A stretch of 64,000 nucleotides of DNA, from positions 1 to 64,000 of the forward strand of contig NZ_CP047409.1 in assembly GCF_013487865.1 (NCBI RefSeq), in the 5' to 3' direction. A program made the translations under genes and the position numbers. Positions 1 through 52,609 of the stretch are shown in pieces; positions within the stretch are counted from its first letter, which is position 1; each line of letters opens with the position of its first letter. Source of the stretch: Lactobacillus johnsonii. GTDB lineage: Bacteria; Bacillota; Bacilli; Lactobacillales; Lactobacillaceae. Under the pieces are notes generated by a model, which saw only the letters and a list, made by a program, of their open reading frames with translations, made no database searches and was not told the origin of the DNA.

Positions 1-1365
1 TTGTTTGATCTAGATAAATTTTGGCAATTTTTTAATGCTGAGATGAAAAAAAGCTACAGCACGGTTGCCTATAATGCTTGGTTTAAAAATACTAAACCAA
101 TTTCCTTTAATAAAAAGACAAAAGAAATGATAATCGCTGTTGAATCACCCGTTGCAAAGGGATACTGGGAAAAGAACTTAGCTTCTCAACTCATTCAAGA
201 AGCATATGCTTATGCCGACATGGAAATTCAACCTAAATTTGAAGTTGCAGGTAAAGAAGGTCCTGAACGTTTAGTTACACCACAACCACGAATTAAAACT
301 AATCAAGAAATATTAGAAAATCGCAGAGATGAATTTGCTCAAGACCTTCAACTAAATAGCAAGTATACTTTCGATACCTTTGTTCAAGGTGAGGGAAACA
401 AGCTGGCAGCGGGTGCAGCCTTAGCAGTCGCTGATAATCCGGGAAGTTTTTACAATCCTTTGTTTATTTTTGGTGGGGTCGGTTTAGGTAAAACCCACTT
501 AATGCAAGCCATTGGACACCAGATGTTGGCTGAAAAACCACATGCAAAAGTGGTTTATATTCAGAGTGAAACTTTCGTAAATGATTTTATTAACTCAATA
601 AAAAACAAAACTCAGGCTGAATTTCGTAATAAGTATCGGAACTGTGATCTCCTATTAGTAGACGATATTCAATTCTTTTCTAAAAAAGAGGGAATCCAGG
701 AGGAATTCTTCCATACTTTTGAAACCCTTTATAATGATCAAAAACAGATTGTTATGACTAGTGATCGTCTACCAACCGAAATTCCTGAATTATCAGAACG
801 TTTAGTTTCACGCTTTGCTTGGGGACTACAAGTTGAAATTACGCCTCCAGATTTAGAGACTAGAATTGCGATTTTGCGAAAAAAGGCTGAAACCGATGGC
901 CTAGCAATTGACGACAGTACCCTTGACTATATTGCTTCACAAGTTGATACCAATATTCGTGAACTCGAAGGAGCTTTAGTTAAAGTTCAAGCCCATGCAA
1001 CAATTGAGCGCGAAGATATTAATGTTGACTTAGCCAAAGAGGCTCTAGCTGACTTAAAGTTGGTACAAAAAAATAGGGGGCTTCAAATTTCTAAGATTCA
1101 AGAAGTTGTGGCCAACTATTTCCAAACCTCAACTACTGAACTAAAGGGTAAGAAGCGTGTAAAACAAATTGTTGTTCCTCGACAAATTGCAATGTATTTG
1201 TCTCGTGAGTTAACAGATTCTAGTTTGCCTAAAATTGGACAGGAATTTGGCGGTAAGGATCACACAACTGTAATGCATGCTTGCGATAAAATTTCGCGTG
1301 CCTTAAAAACTGATGCTGAAATTAAAGCAGCTGTGTATGATTTAAAGGCTATGCTTGAACACTAA
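1..1365 (+). CDS. dnaA: Chromosomal replication initiator DnaA
   Basis: DnaA binds DnaA boxes at oriC, melts the origin and helps load the replicative helicase. The 454-residue product has the usual four-domain length. The AAA+ core shows Walker A GGVGLGKTH near residue 158 and Walker B LLLVDDIQ near 218. The C-terminal DnaA-box-binding signature is GGKDHTTVMHACDKI. The start codon is TTG at base 1, so the ribosome binding site and promoter lie outside the window. It is followed by a DnaA-box-containing gap and dnaN, the usual Firmicutes order. Confidence 0.98.
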   Translation: MFDLDKFWQFFNAEMKKSYSTVAYNAWFKNTKPISFNKKTKEMIIAVESPVAKGYWEKNLASQLIQEAYAYADMEIQPKFEVAGKEGPERLVTPQPRIKTNQEILENRRDEFAQDLQLNSKYTFDTFVQGEGNKLAAGAALAVADNPGSFYNPLFIFGGVGLGKTHLMQAIGHQMLAEKPHAKVVYIQSETFVNDFINSIKNKTQAEFRNKYRNCDLLLVDDIQFFSKKEGIQEEFFHTFETLYNDQKQIVMTSDRLPTEIPELSERLVSRFAWGLQVEITPPDLETRIAILRKKAETDGLAIDDSTLDYIASQVDTNIRELEGALVKVQAHATIEREDINVDLAKEALADLKLVQKNRGLQISKIQEVVANYFQTSTTELKGKKRVKQIVVPRQIAMYLSRELTDSSLPKIGQEFGGKDHTTVMHACDKISRALKTDAEIKAAVYDLKAMLEH

Positions 1366-22782: not shown

Positions 22783-22855
22783 GCTGACTTAGCTCAGTTG
22801 GCAGAGCACGTCACTAGTAATGATGAGGTCGAAGGTTCGAATCCTTTAGTCAGCA
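22783..22855 (+). tRNA. tRNA-Thr(AGT), copy 1
   Basis: The 73-nt cloverleaf has acceptor arm GCTGACT/AGTCAGC, D-stem GCTC/GAGC, anticodon stem CGTCA/TGATG with loop CTAGTAA (anticodon AGT), and T-arm loop TTCGAAT. Discriminator A is followed by TTA, so CCA is not encoded. It is identical to the copy at 24597. No convincing promoter is visible upstream. It is followed by AAAAGGCGCTAG-type hairpin sequence (22866-22897). Confidence 0.95.
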
Positions 22856-22908: not shown

Positions 22909-24261
22909 CTAATCATGATTTTCATTTATTTCTATCGCCTTATTTCTACTTGTTTTTTCCTTACGCTTAAGATAGTAAAAAATAGGTAGGCCAACAGCTA
23001 CTATTCCTAAAAATAGAACTACACCAGCAGGATCATTAAATAGTTCACTGACAACGATAAATAATCCACCTAAAATTGCAACGATTGGTACTAAAGGATA
23101 GAGCGGAGTACTAAAAGGACGATTAGAATTTTCTCGTCTTAATTTAAAAATGCCGAAAAAGGCCAAAATATAAAAGCAATATATCGTAAAGACACATAAG
23201 TCTGATAAGCGATCAGGATCGAACAATACTAGCATTAAAGTTGCTAATACGGTGATAAAAATAGTAGCAACGATAGGAGATTTTCCTTTTGGAGTTAAAT
23301 AGGTTAAATAAGATGAAAATGGCAAATCATTTCTTTTAGCCATAGCATAAACAATTCTTGGAAAAGTAATAATTTTACCATTGAGAGTACCAAGCATCGA
23401 AATAATTATTCCTAATGTTAATAGCTTTCCACCAATATTACCAAAAGCTTTTGTAGCTAAATACGTAGTTGTATCCTCTCCTAGGCGCTCAATAAGGTCG
23501 GCTGGAATAAAGCGTAAGATACCGACTGTAATTAGAGTGTAGATCGTTAAAACAATCGTAATTCCTAAGATAATCGCTTGCGGAAGAACTTTTTGAGGAT
23601 TTTTCATTTCACCACCTAAGTTCGCAATTAAAATCCAGCCGTCGTAAGCAAACAAGGTAGCTAACACAGCAACTCCAAATCCGCCACTACTTTGTTTAGC
23701 GTCAGAAATAGTCTTACCTAGGGCGTTATTTTGACCCCAAAAGATACCAAAAATAATAATTGCAGCAATCGGAATCATTTTTCCAATTGTAGTAATAACA
23801 GAAAATGCGGCACCTATCTTATTGTCTAAAAAATTAATCATACTGATAAAAAGCATACAGCCGATTGATAGAGGAATGCGCCAGGAATCATCTAGATTAA
23901 AGAAATTAGCGATAAGAATTCCGGTAAAACCACCTACGGCTGCAATAATTGCTGGGCCATAGACGATAACTTGCATCCATCCGTCTAGAAAACCAAGAAT
24001 CCGCCCATATAACTTCTCGATATAAACATATAATCCGCCAGTATATGGCATTTGAGCTCCAATTTCAGCAATTGTTAAACCAGCTGCTAGTGTAATAACA
24101 CCACCAAAGATCCAAGCACTAATAGCTAGGGTTGAATTATGAGCACTTTGGAGAACTGAAGCTTGTTTGAAAAAGATACCTGATCCGATGATTGTCCCAA
24201 TAACAATTGAAATAGCTGAAAAGAAGCCTAACGAACGCTTAAGATGGTTTTGTTGTTTCAT
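22909..24261 (-). CDS. APC-superfamily permease, SteT-like Ser/Thr exchanger
   Basis: This amino-acid transporter belongs to the LAT branch of the APC superfamily, most like the B. subtilis Ser/Thr exchanger SteT. The 450-residue protein has about 12 membrane segments. Segment 1 holds the substrate-binding VIGTIIGSGIFF, and AAGLTIAEIGAQMPYTGGLYVYI follows in segment 2. A good SD (GAAAGGA, 8-base spacer) precedes ATG 24261. The Ser/Thr assignment comes from family likeness and, independently, from the Ser/Thr-rich leader peptide and attenuator directly upstream. tRNA-Thr genes lie on both sides. Confidence 0.88.
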   Translation of the reverse strand: MKQQNHLKRSLGFFSAISIVIGTIIGSGIFFKQASVLQSAHNSTLAISAWIFGGVITLAAGLTIAEIGAQMPYTGGLYVYIEKLYGRILGFLDGWMQVIVYGPAIIAAVGGFTGILIANFFNLDDSWRIPLSIGCMLFISMINFLDNKIGAAFSVITTIGKMIPIAAIIIFGIFWGQNNALGKTISDAKQSSGGFGVAVLATLFAYDGWILIANLGGEMKNPQKVLPQAIILGITIVLTIYTLITVGILRFIPADLIERLGEDTTTYLATKAFGNIGGKLLTLGIIISMLGTLNGKIITFPRIVYAMAKRNDLPFSSYLTYLTPKGKSPIVATIFITVLATLMLVLFDPDRLSDLCVFTIYCFYILAFFGIFKLRRENSNRPFSTPLYPLVPIVAILGGLFIVVSELFNDPAGVVLFLGIVAVGLPIFYYLKRKEKTSRNKAIEINENHD

Positions 24262-24283
24262 CTTGATAATCCTTTCTAAAAGA

Positions 24284-24375
24284 AAAAAAGCCCAGATTCA
24301 CAAAAATCACTCTGCTACAAAAGTGATTAAGTGAATCCAGGCTTTTTTTGAAATATTTGGCTACACAAAATCACT
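24284..24375 (-). promoter_or_regulatory. Attenuator: terminator plus competing antiterminator segment before the permease
   Basis: In minus-strand sense a long hairpin pairs AGCC..GATTCAC..AATCACT (region 2, 24322-24342) with AGTGATT..GTGAATC..GGCT (region 3, 24291-24311), then T7, 23 bases before the permease ATG. Region 1 (24364-24375, AGTGATTTTGTG) nearly duplicates region 3. It can pair with the AATCACT and CAC blocks of region 2, so 1:2 pairing would prevent the terminator. Region 1 starts at the leader-peptide stop codon, so a ribosome that finishes the leader would cover it. The mechanism is inference; the sequences are seen. Confidence 0.8.
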
Positions 24376-24443
24376 CATGTTCCACTGGAGGTGGAAGATG
24401 AGGAGGAAGAAGTATTTAAATTAGTGCGGTGTAAATATTTCAT
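24375..24443 (-). CDS. Ser/Thr-rich 22-residue leader peptide
   Basis: ATG 24443 is preceded by SD AGGAG with an 8-base spacer. The peptide begins MKYLHRTNLNT, continues SSSSSSTSS and ends GT before TGA at 24375-24377. Eight Ser codons (TCT, TCC, TCC, TCA, TCT, TCC, TCC, AGT) and four Thr codons (ACT, ACT, ACC, ACA) make 12 of 22 codons, nearly all consecutive. It has no likely function other than codon sensing. The stop codon abuts the antiterminator segment of the permease attenuator. Confidence 0.82.
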   Translation of the reverse strand: MKYLHRTNLNTSSSSSSTSSGT

Positions 24444-24473
24444 GATTTTAACTCCTAAATGATTTTATATTAG

Positions 24474-24487
24474 AATATCATGATATT
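24474..24487. repeat. 14-bp perfect palindrome upstream of the leader peptide
   Basis: AATATCATGATATT lies about 30 bases upstream of the leader-peptide ATG, in or next to its presumed promoter. It could be an operator; no regulator is known. Confidence 0.4.
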
Positions 24488-24548
24488 ATTAAAAAGCAAA
24501 TAATAAATACATCTTTAATTAAGCAATTAATTTTATTGTAAAAAAGTT

Positions 24549-24596: not shown

Positions 24597-24669
24597 GCTG
24601 ACTTAGCTCAGTTGGCAGAGCACGTCACTAGTAATGATGAGGTCGAAGGTTCGAATCCTTTAGTCAGCA
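24597..24669 (+). tRNA. tRNA-Thr(AGT), copy 2
   Basis: This is identical over all 73 nt to the copy at 22783, and the identity continues 6 bases downstream. It has the same anticodon AGT and no encoded CCA. Unlike copy 1 it has a clear promoter. A hairpin TTAACCTT/AAGGTTAA (24693-24738) with a T run follows and would terminate it. Confidence 0.95.
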
Positions 24670-25014: not shown

Positions 25015-26469
25015 GGCTGTTTGTCAAATCCTGTTGATGAATAGTTTGTAAAGAGAGCTAAGCAACTAGAAAATAGTTGTTTGGCTCTTTTTCTTTTACA
25101 ATATTTTCTTCAAGTCTAATTCTAATTAATAAATGTTTGAAATTTCTATAGCCATAAGCAGTACGTTCAATTTGCTTAATCTTCCGATTGACACCTTCAA
25201 GACAACCATTAGAGTAGTTAGAAGATATACCGTTTAGGACACCGGTATAATTATGCTTAAAGGTCAGTAGTGTTTGATGCATTTGTTTACCAACACTTTG
25301 TTTTGAATGAAGTAGATGGATAACTTTCTTTTCATCGTTATCCTGAATAGCAGTCATAAAGTCCTGCATAACCCAATAAGTATTTTCTAAGGTTTGGTCA
25401 CAATCTAAACCATCTAAGACAACATGTTCCTGAGTGAGAGAGTCTTTAAAGTGCCAATCGTAGTAGGGAGTAGTCTTATTAAGTTTGTCATATTTCATGA
25501 GATAAAGCTTCCAAGGAGACTTTAAAAGCTTATATTCATGGCTTTGCTTTTTAAATTGCTTCATGATTTGAACTCTGAAAATATTAAACGATCTAGTAAG
25601 CATTTGAACCATATGAAAACGGTCAATAACTATCTGAGCATTTGGAAATAATTCTCTAGCAACTAAAGGATAATAACAATTAAGATCCATAGTTACTGTT
25701 TTAACCATTGCACGAGCTTTAGGAGTGAACTTGTAAAAATAGCGTAGAATATCAGGTTTGAAACGAGTTCTAAGAATTTGAACAACTTTGTGAGTATCAC
25801 CATCTAGACAAATAAAGTGAAGCTTTTTGCCTACACCTTTGAATTCATCAAAGGCTAAGTGTTCAGGGAGATGATCAAAGTCATCATAGAACTTAGAAGA
25901 GCAGGCTTCTAATACTCTTTGAACCGTGTTGACAGATACATTATGTTCTCTAGCAATGCTGGTCATTGAACGATCTTCAGTAAGAGCAGAAAGTATTTTT
26001 CGCTTAGAAGTGTTAGAGATATAGGAGCCTTTATTAACCAGATTAGATTGAGCCATAGATCTTTTTAAACAGTCATTGCAGAGAACACGTTGTTTTCTTA
26101 ATCTGATAGTAACGGGCTTACTAGCATCAGCAGTAATGAAACGAACGTTAGAAACGTAATGACCGTTATGCTTAAGATTAGTAGAACGACAATAAGGACA
26201 ATGGGACTGAATAAGTTCAGCTACATAGAGATTATGATATTTGCCGTTAATATATTTTTTAAAATAATCAGAAAAATAATATTAGGATCTTCAATATTGA
26301 GATGAAATTTAATACAATCATTGTTAGAGGACATAAGCAATCACCTTTATTCTTTAGAGTGGAATCAGAAGATTTAATGCAGTGAGGCTTATGGCCTCTT
26401 TCTTTGTGCAATAAAAATCCTGTCGATAGAATATCATAGATATCCATCAACAGGAAAAAGTATAGAGCC
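25015..26469 (-). mobile_element. ISL3-family insertion sequence, copy 2, no target duplication
   Basis: The left end GGCTGTTTGTCAAATCCTGT begins at 25015 and the right end (reading inward GGCTCTATAC) finishes at 26469. The flanking 8-mers differ (AATAAATG and CTATTAAT). IS66 sequence is on both sides, but the end of tnpB and the start of tnpC are missing, so this copy probably arose with or caused a deletion. Most of the element is almost identical to copy 1, but the last 0.25 kb at the N-terminal coding end is clearly divergent. Confidence 0.88.
25058..26334 (-). pseudogene. Frameshifted ISL3 transposase (copy 2)
   Basis: The frame starts at ATG 26334 (MSSNNDCIKFHLNIEDPNII). It loses one T in a T run relative to copy 1 (about 26275-26280) and hits a stop. 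The correct frame resumes as VAELIQSHCPYCRSTNLKHNG and is then open to 25058. The remaining 332-residue frame from ATG 26056 lacks the zinc-finger region, so it is unlikely to act alone. The N-terminal 75 codons differ at many positions from copy 1, while the rest differs at only a few. Confidence 0.82.
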
Positions 26470-26471
26470 CT

Positions 26472-27951
26472 ATTAATAACTTAAATGAAGAAATAGCCCT
26501 TCTCAGAGAACAAGTAGCGTACTTAACGCAAAAGAGATACGGTAAATCTTCTGAACAGATGCCACTATCTGGTCAAACCAGTTTGTTTGAAGAAGATCAA
26601 ATTAGTGAAGATGATGATCTTCCCAGGAGAAGAGCCAGAAGAAACTATTATCTATAAGAGAAGTAAACATAAAGCTAAAAGAGAAGCTATTCTATCAGCT
26701 TTTCCTTCAGAAGAAGTACATCATAAACTATCTGAAGCAGAACAAATCTGTTCAGATTGCCAACATGAATTAAAAGAAATTGGCTCCTGGATTGTAAGAA
26801 AAGAATTAGTCTTTATTCCTGCACAAATTAAGCGGCTCGATCATATACAGCATGCTTACAAGTGTAAACATTGCAGCTTAAATAATGAAAGAGACAAAAT
26901 TATTAAAGCACCTATTCCTAAGGCTCCTTTAGCCCATAGTTATGGTTCAAGTTCAATTATTGCTCATAGTATTTACCAAAAGTATGAGTTAAAAATACCA
27001 GCTTACCGTCAAAAGAACGACTGGCAAAAGCTAGGCTTGCCTATTCAAAGACAAGATCTAGTTAACTGGCAAATGAAGTGCAGTGAATATTACTTCAAAC
27101 CGCTTTATGACTTATTGAAGGAAAGACTTCTGCAACAGGAGATTCTTCATGCAGATGAAACCAGTTATCGAGTACTTGAAAGTGAAACTATTAAAACTTA
27201 CTATTGGACTTTCTTATCGGGCAAACAAGAAAAGAAACCAATAATTCTTTATCATCATGACCCACACCGCAGCGGTAAAGTTGCGATAGACTTTTTAGGC
27301 AATTTTTCCGGGTATCTTCACTGTGATATGTGGCAAGCTTATAAGCCATTATCTAGTACAACGCTAGTTGGCTGCTGGGCACATGTTAGAAGAAAGTTTA
27401 AAGAAGCAATGCCACCTACTAATAAGGGAAAGTCTCTGTCTAAACAAGGGGTTCACTATTGTAATAGGATGTTTACCTTAGAGAGGTCATGGGAGAAGCT
27501 ATCTAATGAAGAACGATATCAAAGACGACAAAAAGAACTAAAGCCTTTATTTGAAGAATTCTTCGACTGGTGTCGAAATAATCAACCGATGGTTTTACCA
27601 GGATCCAAGCTTGGTAAAGCGATTGCTTATGCACTGAATCATGAAGAGACCTTCAAGAATGTCTTGCTTGATAGCAAACTGGTTTTATCTAATAATCACG
27701 CAGAACGAGCAATCAAAACATTAGTGATTGGACGAAAGAACTGGTTATTCTCACAAAGCTTTGAAGGTGCACAATCATCAGCTATAATTTTGAGTTTAAT
27801 TGAGACAGCCAAAAGAAATAGCCTTGATTCAGAAAAATATATTGAATACTTACTAGATAAATTACCAAATGAAGATACTCTGACAGATAAAGAAGCACTG
27901 TCGGCTTATTTACCATGGACAAAAGAAGTTCAGAAAGTATGTAAAACATAA
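26472..27951 (+). pseudogene. IS66 transposase TnpC, truncated and frameshifted
   Basis: The N-terminal part begins inside the gene after the ISL3 end (NNLNEEIALLREQVAYLTQK, then RYGKSSEQ and SGQTSLFEEDQ). A CCC run at 26622-26624 with one extra C shifts the frame; removing it gives DDDLPGEEPEETIIYKR. The rest is a normal IS66 core: zinc-finger CSDCQHELKEIG and CKHC, then LHADETSYRVLE, HCDMWQAYKPL and the C-terminal NNHAERAIKTLVIGRKNW. Confidence 0.88.
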
Positions 27952-50747: not shown

Positions 50748-50849
50748 TTAACGCTTAATTTCGTGGATCAATCGAGTGACTGAAACAACGAGTCGTGAAG
50801 CTTGGTACAATATTAAACCAATAGCAATTAAAGTAAATGCGTCAAGCAA
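50748..50849 (-). CDS. Possible small holin-like or type I toxin peptide
   Basis: A 33-residue frame from TTG 50849 (SD AAGGA, about 10 bases upstream) reads LDAFTLIAIGLILYQASRLV then VSVTRLIHEIKR: one membrane segment with a basic tail. That is the build of type I toxins and holin-like toxin families. A minus-strand terminator (AGTCACTT/AAGTGGCT, then T6; 50696-50723) follows. Homology is not established; the start codon and frame are inferred. Confidence 0.4.
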   Translation of the reverse strand: MLDAFTLIAIGLILYQASRLVVSVTRLIHEIKR

Positions 50850-50925
50850 GGCGTACAATTCCTTAAAGAGAACTTGATTAGGCTACGTTGCTAGCGCGCA
50901 TATATTTGTCAAAAGACGTCTTGTG

Positions 50926-50950
50926 GGTGGTCGTTGAACCACCTTTTTTT
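50926..50950 (+). terminator. Plus-strand terminator antisense to the possible toxin leader
   Basis: GGTGGT...ACCACC then T7. It faces away from the toxin frame, so it would end a + strand RNA that overlaps the toxin mRNA 5' part, as an antitoxin RNA would. A clear promoter for that RNA was not found. Confidence 0.55.
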
Positions 50951-51041
50951 ATTGCAAAATTTTCAGGTTTCTCGTATCACAATATATTATATTAAAAATA
51001 GCTAAAATTATAATTTAACTAATAAATAATTAAAATTATTG

Positions 51042-51360
51042 TTGACTTTTAATTTTTATCGTTGTAATATTATGTTCAATCAAAAATAAAAACGGCTTTG
51101 ATAAGGAAAGTAAGTTTTACTGAAGTCCTACAGAGAGTTTCTGGTTGGTGCGAAGAAACAACGAAGGTTTAGCTGAAAATCACCTTTGAGCAGAAATTAC
51201 GAATTGAGTAGTTTCAGGGCACGCCCTTTATAGCGTCGACGTATCGCTCTTTTTGAGCCGCACGTGCAACGAGGCTGGAGCTATGCTCAGCGAACATAGG
51301 TGGTACAGCGCATAAGCGCCCTATTAGATCAAAATAATTGGTCTGGTAGGGCGCTTTTTT
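51042..51360 (+). promoter_or_regulatory. T-box riboswitch with promoter and terminator
   Basis: A promoter TTGACT-17 bp-TAATAT lies at 51042-51070. Stem I text ACAGAGAGTTTCTGGTTGGT with GCGAAGAAAC is T-box-typical. CCTTTGAGC, then TTACGAATTGAGTAG, gives the specifier-loop 3' side. The T-box core GGTGGTACAGCG is at 51299-51310 (consensus GGTGGTACCGCG). The terminator AAGCGCCCTA/TAGGGCGCTT plus T6 is at 51314-51360. The specifier is tentatively TAC (Tyr), directly before GAA; this assignment is uncertain. Confidence 0.82.
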
Positions 51361-51406
51361 CTTTAACAAAGCTATTAAGTATAGGAATAATTGGGAGAAA
51401 ATTATT

Positions 51407-51980
51407 ATGAAAAAGTTTATCAAGAGGTGGAGTATACAGTACAAATGCTTTTTCACCTGATAGATTTGGAAAGTGTATATTAAATAAAATGGACCTAGGA
51501 GAATTAAAAAATTTGGCCAAAATAATTTTTAAACCTGCAACTGTGAGATATTTAAAATCTCATGCATGGAAGAAAGCATCAGCAATGATGGTAAATGCAA
51601 TTGTGCAGTATGCACCTAAGAAAGTTGCTAGTTTGGCTGTTAAAAAGTTTGCAAATCTTACACTGCCTGGAGTTGGTTGGGCATCAGTAGCATGGTGGGG
51701 GCTCAATGTGGTTGGGATGAATTCCATTAAAAAGTTTTTAAAATGGATATTTGGATTATTACTAATTAATTTTGCAGGACTAATACTAATTACACTTTAT
51801 TCGGCTTATTACAGCTTTGGTACTATGATTTTTGGAGTTCATACTGAAGCCGCCATAAAGGATTTTTGGAATACTGAATTTATTACTGCGGTTCCTTTTA
51901 TTATTGGAGTAAATTTACTCGCAATTAGCACTGCACTTTTTCGAATGTATAAGAATAAGAAGAAAAAAACTCTTAGTTAG
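51407..51980 (+). pseudogene. T-box-controlled unknown membrane protein, apparently frameshifted near its start
   Basis: ATG 51407 has SD GGGAG and starts MKKFIKRWSIQYKCFFT before TGA 51458. In another frame GGVYSTNAFSPDRFGKCILN leads straight into the open 163-residue frame (51489-51980). A small indel near 51425 would therefore join them into a protein of about 185-190 residues. The body has an amphipathic basic part (APKKVASLAVKKF) and two or three membrane segments (about 100-160), with tail KNKKKK. No family is recognised. Translation could also start at ATG 51489, which lacks an SD. Confidence 0.55.
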
Positions 51981-52046
51981 TTTGATAAATTGGTGTAAGT
52001 CATATTTCGAAAGATACACTCACTGGATATAGAGGACAATAATCTT

Positions 52047-52211
52047 ATGAAAAGAAAGCAATTAATTTTATATTTTATTTGTTTAACATTGGTAATTGAA
52101 CTTTATAATTTTCTAATTGCCCCATATATTTCAAATTTGTTTTTGAATATTATATTAAGCGGAATATGCGGAGGACTAATTACTTTAGTAGTTTATAAAT
52201 TGAGCAAATAG
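52047..52211 (+). CDS. Small membrane protein, unknown (54 residues)
   Basis: MKRKQLILYFICLTLVIELY is followed by further hydrophobic residues (NLFLNIILSGICGGLITLVV), giving two membrane segments. An SD (AGAGGA, 10-base spacer) precedes ATG 52047. It lies in the run of small membrane ORFs after the T-box protein. No family is recognised; a bacteriocin-immunity-like role is possible only by size. Confidence 0.5.
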   Translation: MKRKQLILYFICLTLVIELYNFLIAPYISNLFLNIILSGICGGLITLVVYKLSK

Positions 52212-52324
52212 AAAAGTTTTTAATTTAGTAGTAGATTTTTTTGCTTATTATAAAATTTATTTCATTTTTATAGTTCAAATTTAATCTAGCTACCATTAAG
52301 GATTTTTCGGAATACTGAAATCTT

Positions 52325-52609
52325 ATGAAAATACGAGAAACTATTATGAAAAAAGGTATTGTTACAACTCTTTTTTATAAATATGATGTAACAACAACTT
52401 TTGTGTTATTAGCCATATTAAATCTTGGGTCACCGTGGGGAAATATTTCTTTTCGTGTGGTTATGGTTCTAATGAACATTGTTGTTGGAGCTAGTATGGA
52501 ATATTTAGTTAATAGATTTTCTTCAACAAGACGCCCATTGTTTAAAGGGATGGTAGCTTTAATTTTACTTTTTATAAATATAATTTGGATTTTAGTTACG
52601 GTCATCTAG
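52325..52609 (+). CDS. Small membrane protein, unknown (94 residues)
   Basis: The product has three hydrophobic segments (about 25-45, 45-65, 72-92). ATG 52325 sits in the same AATCTTATGAAAA context as the gene at 52047; an alternative ATG is 52346. No strong SD is visible. Upstream text AAGGATTTTTCGGAATACTG (52300-52319) repeats a piece of the T-box-controlled gene (near 51858), so this patch holds duplicated, decayed sequence. Confidence 0.45.
   Translation: MKIRETIMKKGIVTTLFYKYDVTTTFVLLAILNLGSPWGNISFRVVMVLMNIVVGASMEYLVNRFSSTRRPLFKGMVALILLFINIIWILVTVI

Follow-up and report, generated by a model that had tools for sequence, protein, structure and literature searches.

A serine-codon leader-peptide attenuator predicted upstream of a SteT-like permease gene of Lactobacillus johnsonii, with codon-exchanged relatives in Lactobacillaceae

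The DNA analysed, called the window below, is a stretch of 64,000 nucleotides from Lactobacillus johnsonii. The locus considered here lies on its minus strand, where a permease gene is preceded (reading from 24500 to 24261) by a promoter-like element, a Shine-Dalgarno (SD) sequence, a leader ORF, a linker of about 30 bases and a terminator. The features are listed below in the direction of transcription.

24472-24499, minus strand: promoter-like element read from the sequence, TTGCTT (24494-24499) with the extended -10 TGATATTCT (24472-24480)
24452-24456, minus strand: leader SD AGGAG, 8 nt upstream of the leader ATG, read from the sequence
24375-24443, minus strand: leader peptide ORF MKYLHRTNLNTSSSSSSTSSGT, 22 codons, ATG at 24443, stop codon TGA
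24394-24402, minus strand: segment A, putative 5' protector arm within the Ser codons (from A:B pair counts)
24370-24382, minus strand: segment B, putative partner of A or C, including the stop codon (from A:B and B:C pair counts)
24318-24328, minus strand: segment C, inner 5' terminator arm and putative antiterminator partner of B (from B:C and C:D pair counts)
24283-24342, minus strand: intrinsic terminator, the C:D hairpin, with its 5' arm from 24342, its 3' arm at 24290-24311 and a T-run at 24283-24289
22909-24261, minus strand: the gene thought to be regulated, a 450-amino-acid SteT-like APC amino-acid permease (Pfam AA_permease_2, 190.7 bits; homologs in its own genome)

The permease starts with an ATG at 24261, preceded by an SD-like AAAGG. 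All 20 of its NCBIfam matches fall below the cut-off, and its best solved relatives, 6f2g and 9h76, were deposited as putative amino acid/polyamine transport protein; 6f2g we take to be BasC, an Ala-Ser-Cys exchanger. We call the permease SteT-like, and a serine/threonine substrate is suggested by its family only. On the opposite (plus) strand, two identical tRNA-Thr (agt) genes (22783-22855 and 24597-24669) enclose the permease-leader unit; they lie inside direct repeats that are identical over 79 bases. Two such tRNA genes are also found in L. johnsonii ATCC 33200 (L040), and only one in the fetched stretches L039 and L041. Recombination between the repeats could delete the permease-leader unit. 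Beside the locus there are also transposase genes of the ISL3 family (25058-26056, minus strand) and the IS66 family (26587-27951, plus strand).

As read from the sequence, the spacing of TTGCTT and TGATATTCT resembles that of a sigma-70 extended -10 promoter; a stricter promoter scan of the window does not have the element in its output. The leader and the terminator had both been put forward in the original prediction, which was made from the sequence alone, and both are real. The ORF contains 8 Ser and 4 Thr codons among its 22, with T18 inside the Ser run, and the fold of 24278-24345 has an energy of -29.9 kcal/mol (z -8.57), with none of 200 shuffles equally good. This terminator was not reported by a pattern scan of the window, probably owing to the stem/loop limits of the scan. 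When the ORFs of the whole window were scanned for runs of the same residue, the leader ORF ranked highest (7/8) among 7 ORFs with at least 5/8. Since 20 shuffled windows also yielded 1-11 ORFs each at that level, the same-residue run alone is not decisive.

Comparison with other genomes is more informative. A scan of named genomes gave 79 permease loci. Of the loci L039-L085, the 46 that include an upstream region form the ortholog set (the L081 stretch starts within the gene); their permeases are 64-98% identical. To count as a Ser leader, a short ORF had to lie within the final 260 bases before the gene, have an SD of 4 nt or more and contain four or more Ser in a stretch of 7 residues. Such a leader was found at 39 of the 46 orthologous loci, compared with 13 of 1840 dinucleotide-shuffled upstream regions, and at none of 32 more distant relatives. 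The seven orthologs lacking the element are L066, L069, L073, L074, L077, L079 and L082. Nearly all leader-bearing records belong to Lactobacillus or Limosilactobacillus, with leaders such as MFILHTMQFSSSSSSSSS, MLVFNNQLQQSSSSASSSIRG and MLLSTNHFNLSSSSTSSSLIVVE, and 35 of the 39 upstream regions carry an extended -10 of the form TGNTANNCT. One record with a Ser leader, L043, is titled as a Bacteroides MAG, yet its permease groups with Lactobacillus; it is probably mislabelled or contaminated.

The hairpin core, when located by base pairing alone without the reading frame, coincides with the Ser leader locus by locus, being present at those 39 of the 46 and at no others; hairpin and leader codons thus stay together in the comparison, as the original prediction had expected of an attenuator. 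An SD-led ATG lies 30-50 nt upstream of the core at 37 loci, at a distance of 38, 41 or 44 nt, that is, in one frame in 37 out of 37; L055 and L061 have the core with no SD-led ATG by this distance criterion. Choosing leaders as in-frame Ser ORFs would make such a frame count partly circular, and the count given here therefore uses the core located by pairing alone. Unlike the spacing of ATG and core, that between A arm and terminator (49-72 nt) takes all residues modulo 3 (14/11/10).

The codons speak for conservation of the residue itself. Each of 40 leaders contains 4-9 Ser, while Thr varies from 0 to 4 and is missing from 17 of them. Among the 265 leader Ser codons, 233 are TCN and 32 are AGY, with TCG unused. 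No single base change leads from one of these two codon families to the other while keeping Ser. Both unrelated families are used, and therefore the residue is kept rather than a pyrimidine tract, which rules out the latter as an explanation in place of coding. TCC makes up 32% of the leader Ser codons compared with 7.5% in the window ORFs of 200 codons or more (37 ORFs), and the UCN share is 88% in the leaders compared with 62% in the window genes. Midway through the run, lineages differ in having S, T, A, V or I, and the bases of this codon co-vary with B. The N-terminal residues differ widely between lineages, and the Ser run is retained.

Alignment A1 comprises 35 of 39 distinct leader stretches (the near copies L053, L054, L057 and L078 were omitted; L085 is identical to another). 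It supports three helices, A:B, B:C and C:D, of which neighbours are mutually exclusive. In the protector A:B, nine pairs join the Ser codons with the stop region (at the window locus, 24394-24402 with 24374-24382); 93.6% of the A1 cells are paired compared with 26.6-43.2% when the arms are slid, 36 cells carry double changes compared with a shuffled mean of 10.4, and one pair occurs as G-C, A-U and U-A. For the antiterminator B:C, with eleven pairs, 84.8% of the cells are paired (24.5-51.5% when slid) and 14 carry double changes (5.1 when shuffled), although a slide of -1 also gives 14. The terminator C:D is paired in 72.1% of the cells (21.1-55.1% when slid), with 66 double-change cells compared with 33.1. 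All these pairing counts test structures drawn from the same sequences. The cells changed on both sides lie above every shuffle for all three helices, with cell counts that relatedness inflates. When pairs are counted in place of cells, those changed on both sides exceed the shuffles for C:D (15 compared with 11.0) and do not exceed them for A:B (3 compared with 3.0) and B:C (4 compared with 3.1).

The original prediction had a 'region 1' (AGTGATTTTGTG, 24364-24375) pair with the 5' arm of the terminator. Such pairing, with 24318-24328, is possible, but 'region 1' overlaps the TGA (24375-24377) instead of abutting it and amounts to the middle segment B. The protector arm A in the Ser codons was missed, and the helix A:B is better supported than the pairing of 'region 1' with the terminator 5' arm.

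Folding was then considered for single sequences, with all RNA upstream of the ribosome front masked and not the footprint alone. When the mask ends at the front of a ribosome standing at codon three of the Ser run, and the RNA extends slightly beyond C, 7-11 B:C pairs are present in the lowest-energy fold of all 35 leaders. When the mask extends past the stop codon, all 35 form the C:D terminator and none forms B:C. When the full leader is transcribed and the Ser run masked, the terminator still wins at equilibrium in 35 of 35, and the switch must therefore be kinetic. On the other hand, shuffled C arms reach at least 7 B:C pairs in 408 of 1050 control folds, and by row, at most 1 of 30 shuffles reaches the observed B:C count in only 9 of 35 rows. 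Similarly, by B:C duplex energy only 18 of 35 leaders have 10 or fewer equally good shuffled C segments out of 200, and the window leader has 21 of 200. Duplex energies and shuffled-C folds thus discriminate B:C poorly, and single-sequence folding supports it weakly; the case for this helix rests on the comparison of sequences rather than on the energy of any one of them.

The expected parts of a ribosome-mediated transcription attenuator are found together here: a short SD-led ORF kept in frame, a Ser codon run before a gene of an amino-acid transporter family, an intrinsic terminator between leader and gene, and a stop codon placed for the masking of B (it lies in B at the window locus, and the masked folds agree). 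The alignment adds an antiterminator exclusive with both terminator and protector, with the B:C pairing weak per sequence. The comparison shows that the ORF, its Ser codons, SD and promoter-like element, the terminator and the alternative pairing are conserved. Very probably the element senses charged tRNA-Ser and controls the SteT-like permease by ribosome-mediated transcription attenuation. The attenuator reading of the original prediction is thereby supported, with B:C energetics that are weak in this species.

In the mechanism that we infer, the leader would be translated and serine would be the signal, and presumably also the substrate of the permease. If serine is plentiful, the ribosome would move through the Ser run, reach the stop codon within B and cover B; C would then pair with D, and transcription would end before the permease. 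If tRNA-Ser is poorly charged, the ribosome would stall on the Ser run and cover A, leaving B free to pair with C before D is made; no terminator would form, and the polymerase would read through into the permease gene. If there is no translation, A would pair with B and the terminator would form.

This predicted anatomy is that of classical ribosome-mediated attenuation. In the amino-acid biosynthetic operons of enteric bacteria (trp, his and others), a leader peptide rich in the controlled residue precedes regions I-IV, and the position of the ribosome decides between them (PMC1183508). The present element shares the residue-rich leader peptide and the predicted protector, antiterminator and terminator hairpins, but it precedes a transporter gene, uses Ser codons and occurs in Lactobacillaceae. 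Closer in phylogeny are the ilv-leu attenuators described in Staphylococcus aureus and Listeria monocytogenes and predicted in Lactococcus lactis, a member of the same order, and in streptococci (PMC5794164, PMC6123439). They share with it the Firmicutes host, a leader rich in the sensed residue and an intrinsic terminator, but they serve the biosynthesis of branched-chain amino acids, whereas transport and other codons are involved here. His leader peptides precede the hisS/hisZ paralogs in bacilli and the his operons in the B. cereus group and others (PMC2965389, PMC9413887); unlike the present element, they concern histidine and enzyme genes. For the his genes of Lactobacillales the second of these papers reports T-boxes and not attenuators. 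In L. gasseri and L. johnsonii, an attenuator-like 'ABC-leader' is drawn in a figure of PMC2965389, according to its legend ahead of a different gene, a multidrug export operon. Leader ORFs before cysS and hflX are mentioned in passages of PMC8632094 that do not mention lactobacilli. For serine sensing through B. subtilis sinR, ribosome density rises more at UCN than at AGY codons (PMC3862929), and the leaders of the window family likewise prefer UCN; there the effect is on the protein output of the repressor, according to the same account with no dedicated RNA. Searches of the open-access literature, one of them covering the best 15 of 118 matches, found no title or abstract opening that describes a permease attenuator with a Ser, Thr or Asn leader peptide in lactobacilli. 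This agrees with the original prediction, which knew of no such description for a lactobacilli transporter; its placing of attenuation in Proteobacteria was too narrow, as the his and ilv-leu systems of Firmicutes are published. We regard the element as a well-supported new family within a known mechanism.

The family was extended with a covariance model, R1, which consists of A:B and C:D and was built from the A1 leaders, with the ThrP-like sites described below absent from it. R1 finds one strong site in the window's own genome (E 6e-18; the next E is 0.918). Matches at E of at most 0.01 occur in 42 of 397 family genomes. Permeases of 69% identity or more occur in 32 genomes, a set overlapping the model's own sequences, and by coordinate matching 27 of these have a match directly upstream of the permease; G005, G154, G177, G247 and G344 are those without one. 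Since R1 was built from these leaders, its matches before SteT orthologs are largely by construction. Among 295 genomes of the order, 9 have a match at E of at most 0.001. The three of these that lie outside the family (L241-L243) resemble simple terminators, and the sequence after them gave no permease ORF; by eye the weak matches L168 and L171-L176 have no Ser/Thr leader and no permease.

Further R1 matches precede a different permease. For L150 and L153 the best family is the Thr/Ser transporter ThrP (NF047867), with 557.2 and 564.3 bits; the cut-off is 850, and we therefore call these permeases ThrP-like only. They are preceded by Thr/Ser-rich leaders of the same architecture, MQIYNDSIIHHLTSTSTTTTITVVE and relatives, and such candidate attenuators occur in several genera (L149-L161, L163-L167, L245-L247, L255-L270). 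Alignment A2 comprises 17 leaders, most of ThrP type, among them also the Thr/Ser leaders of the SteT-like genes L162 and L169. A:B is paired in 94.0% and B:C in 95.4% of its cells, and the pairs changed on both sides exceed the shuffles for A:B (3 compared with 0.3) as well as B:C (4 compared with 1.8). The rows of A2 were found with R1, so the A:B count leans to the structure, while B:C is not a modelled pair. A second model gave sites in 48 of the 397 family genomes at E of at most 0.001, some of SteT type. All 17 second-model sites inspected, several of them already among the R1 matches, have a Thr-rich leader, and the downstream gene is ThrP-like by its N-terminus as judged by eye; L256 has only a 246-codon frame.

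SteT-like paralogs show a further exchange of codons. In genus g19 (28 genomes), some SteT-like genes have Thr/Ser leaders such as TSSDST and a SteT-like paralog has Asn-run leaders, for example MFSFVNNNNNNDRFNSTQKVIGRFRVTLEL. Inspection of 16 further upstream regions gave Asn runs in 11, Asp/Asn in 2, Ser/Thr in 2 and no such leader in 1. Before the SteT-like paralog, Asn-run leaders are found in L207, L230, L237, L238, L271, L272, L274-L279 and L283-L285, and Asp/Asn leaders in L273 and L281. A tree of 78 permeases was labelled with the four leader classes and none, where 'none' rests on ORF scans; 18 rows were re-read from the matched stretch, and L075 (short), the near copies L053, L054, L057, L060 and L078, and L081 and L082 were omitted. 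The five labels need 6 changes on this tree, where 4 is the minimum; shuffled labels need 38.9 on average, and none of 200 shuffles comes down to 6. All 34 Ser-leader permeases group together on a weakly supported branch (87/52), and near copies aid the clustering. On this tree the codon class of the leader follows the permease clade.

The SteT-like genes of genus g27 (L193 and L205) are preceded by T-box-like leaders (47.6-58 bits against a gathering score of 93, E 6e-9 to 1e-11), possibly a switch of sensor for the same gene family. Their specifier codons could not be assigned by eye, and L193 carries two such leaders in tandem. In L197, a ribosomal protein L10 leader (263-379, plus strand) lies upstream of a leaderless SteT ortholog, on the opposite strand.

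From these distributions it seems likely that Lactobacillaceae evolved diversified leader-peptide attenuators for amino-acid permeases, with the codon run exchanged as the permeases specialised: Ser for the SteT-like permeases in Lactobacillus and Limosilactobacillus, Thr/Ser for the ThrP-like permeases and for some of the SteT-like ones, and Asn or Asp/Asn for other SteT-like paralogs. If so, the leader codons would predict the permease substrate and offer a sequence code for poorly annotated APC permeases, and the attenuator would fill in these amino-acid scavengers the role that T-boxes play elsewhere. The proposed signal is serine at the window locus, and threonine and asparagine elsewhere. 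Transport genes of lactobacilli would thus be brought into a mechanism known mainly from biosynthetic operons, through leader ORFs whose small size puts them beyond ordinary gene callers. Compared with the window element, the codon-exchanged relatives before paralogous permeases are the newer aspect, and they make the evolution of amino-acid specificity in an RNA switch directly testable.

Several other readings of the window element were weighed. Joint sensing of Ser and Thr by the same machinery, as the original prediction had it, is unlikely. The four Thr codons of the window leader, with T18 within the run, would fit it, the sister ThrP-like leaders are truly Thr/Ser, and B. subtilis SteT is reported as a Ser/Thr exchanger (PMC2494555). 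However, among the 40 leaders Ser is present in each where Thr is often missing, and the mid-run position changes its residue by lineage with bases that co-vary with B. The Ser part of the claim stands, and the Thr/Ser version is found mainly before another permease.

There is a small chance that the leader answers a general translational slowdown, or arrest of the nascent peptide by a drug or metabolite, in place of tRNA-Ser charging. Antibiotic-responsive leader peptides are known in Firmicutes (MsrD, HflXr), but the N-terminal residues vary by lineage around a constant Ser run, and a drug sensor would not predict the shift of codon class to Thr/Ser or Asn with the permease clade. Harder still to credit is an ORF arisen by chance beside a simple intrinsic terminator or an attenuator that acts constitutively; the terminator is strong and SD-led short ORFs with such runs arise in shuffled windows too, but the ORF, frame, SD and Ser codons are conserved and A:B co-varies within the coding run.

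Least probable of all is a T-box or another ligand-binding riboswitch with an incidental ORF, for which the g27 leaders below gathering score and a Thr T-box before steT in the B. cereus group (PMC2494555) are precedents, but no Rfam family reaches its gathering score at the window leader. The part of that T-box survey on steT/ykbA orthologs reports the Thr T-box in the Bacillus cereus group only. Like the proposed tRNA-Ser attenuator, this T-box is an antitermination device that responds to an amino acid and precedes such a permease gene, but in it tRNA binds the RNA directly with no leader ORF. The T-box model RF00230 gives no match at the leader, and its sole match in the window is at 51089-51326 on the plus strand. 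That T-box leader scores 107.3 bits, and the sole ORF of at least 150 amino acids within 50800-52600 is one of 163 amino acids at 51489-51980.
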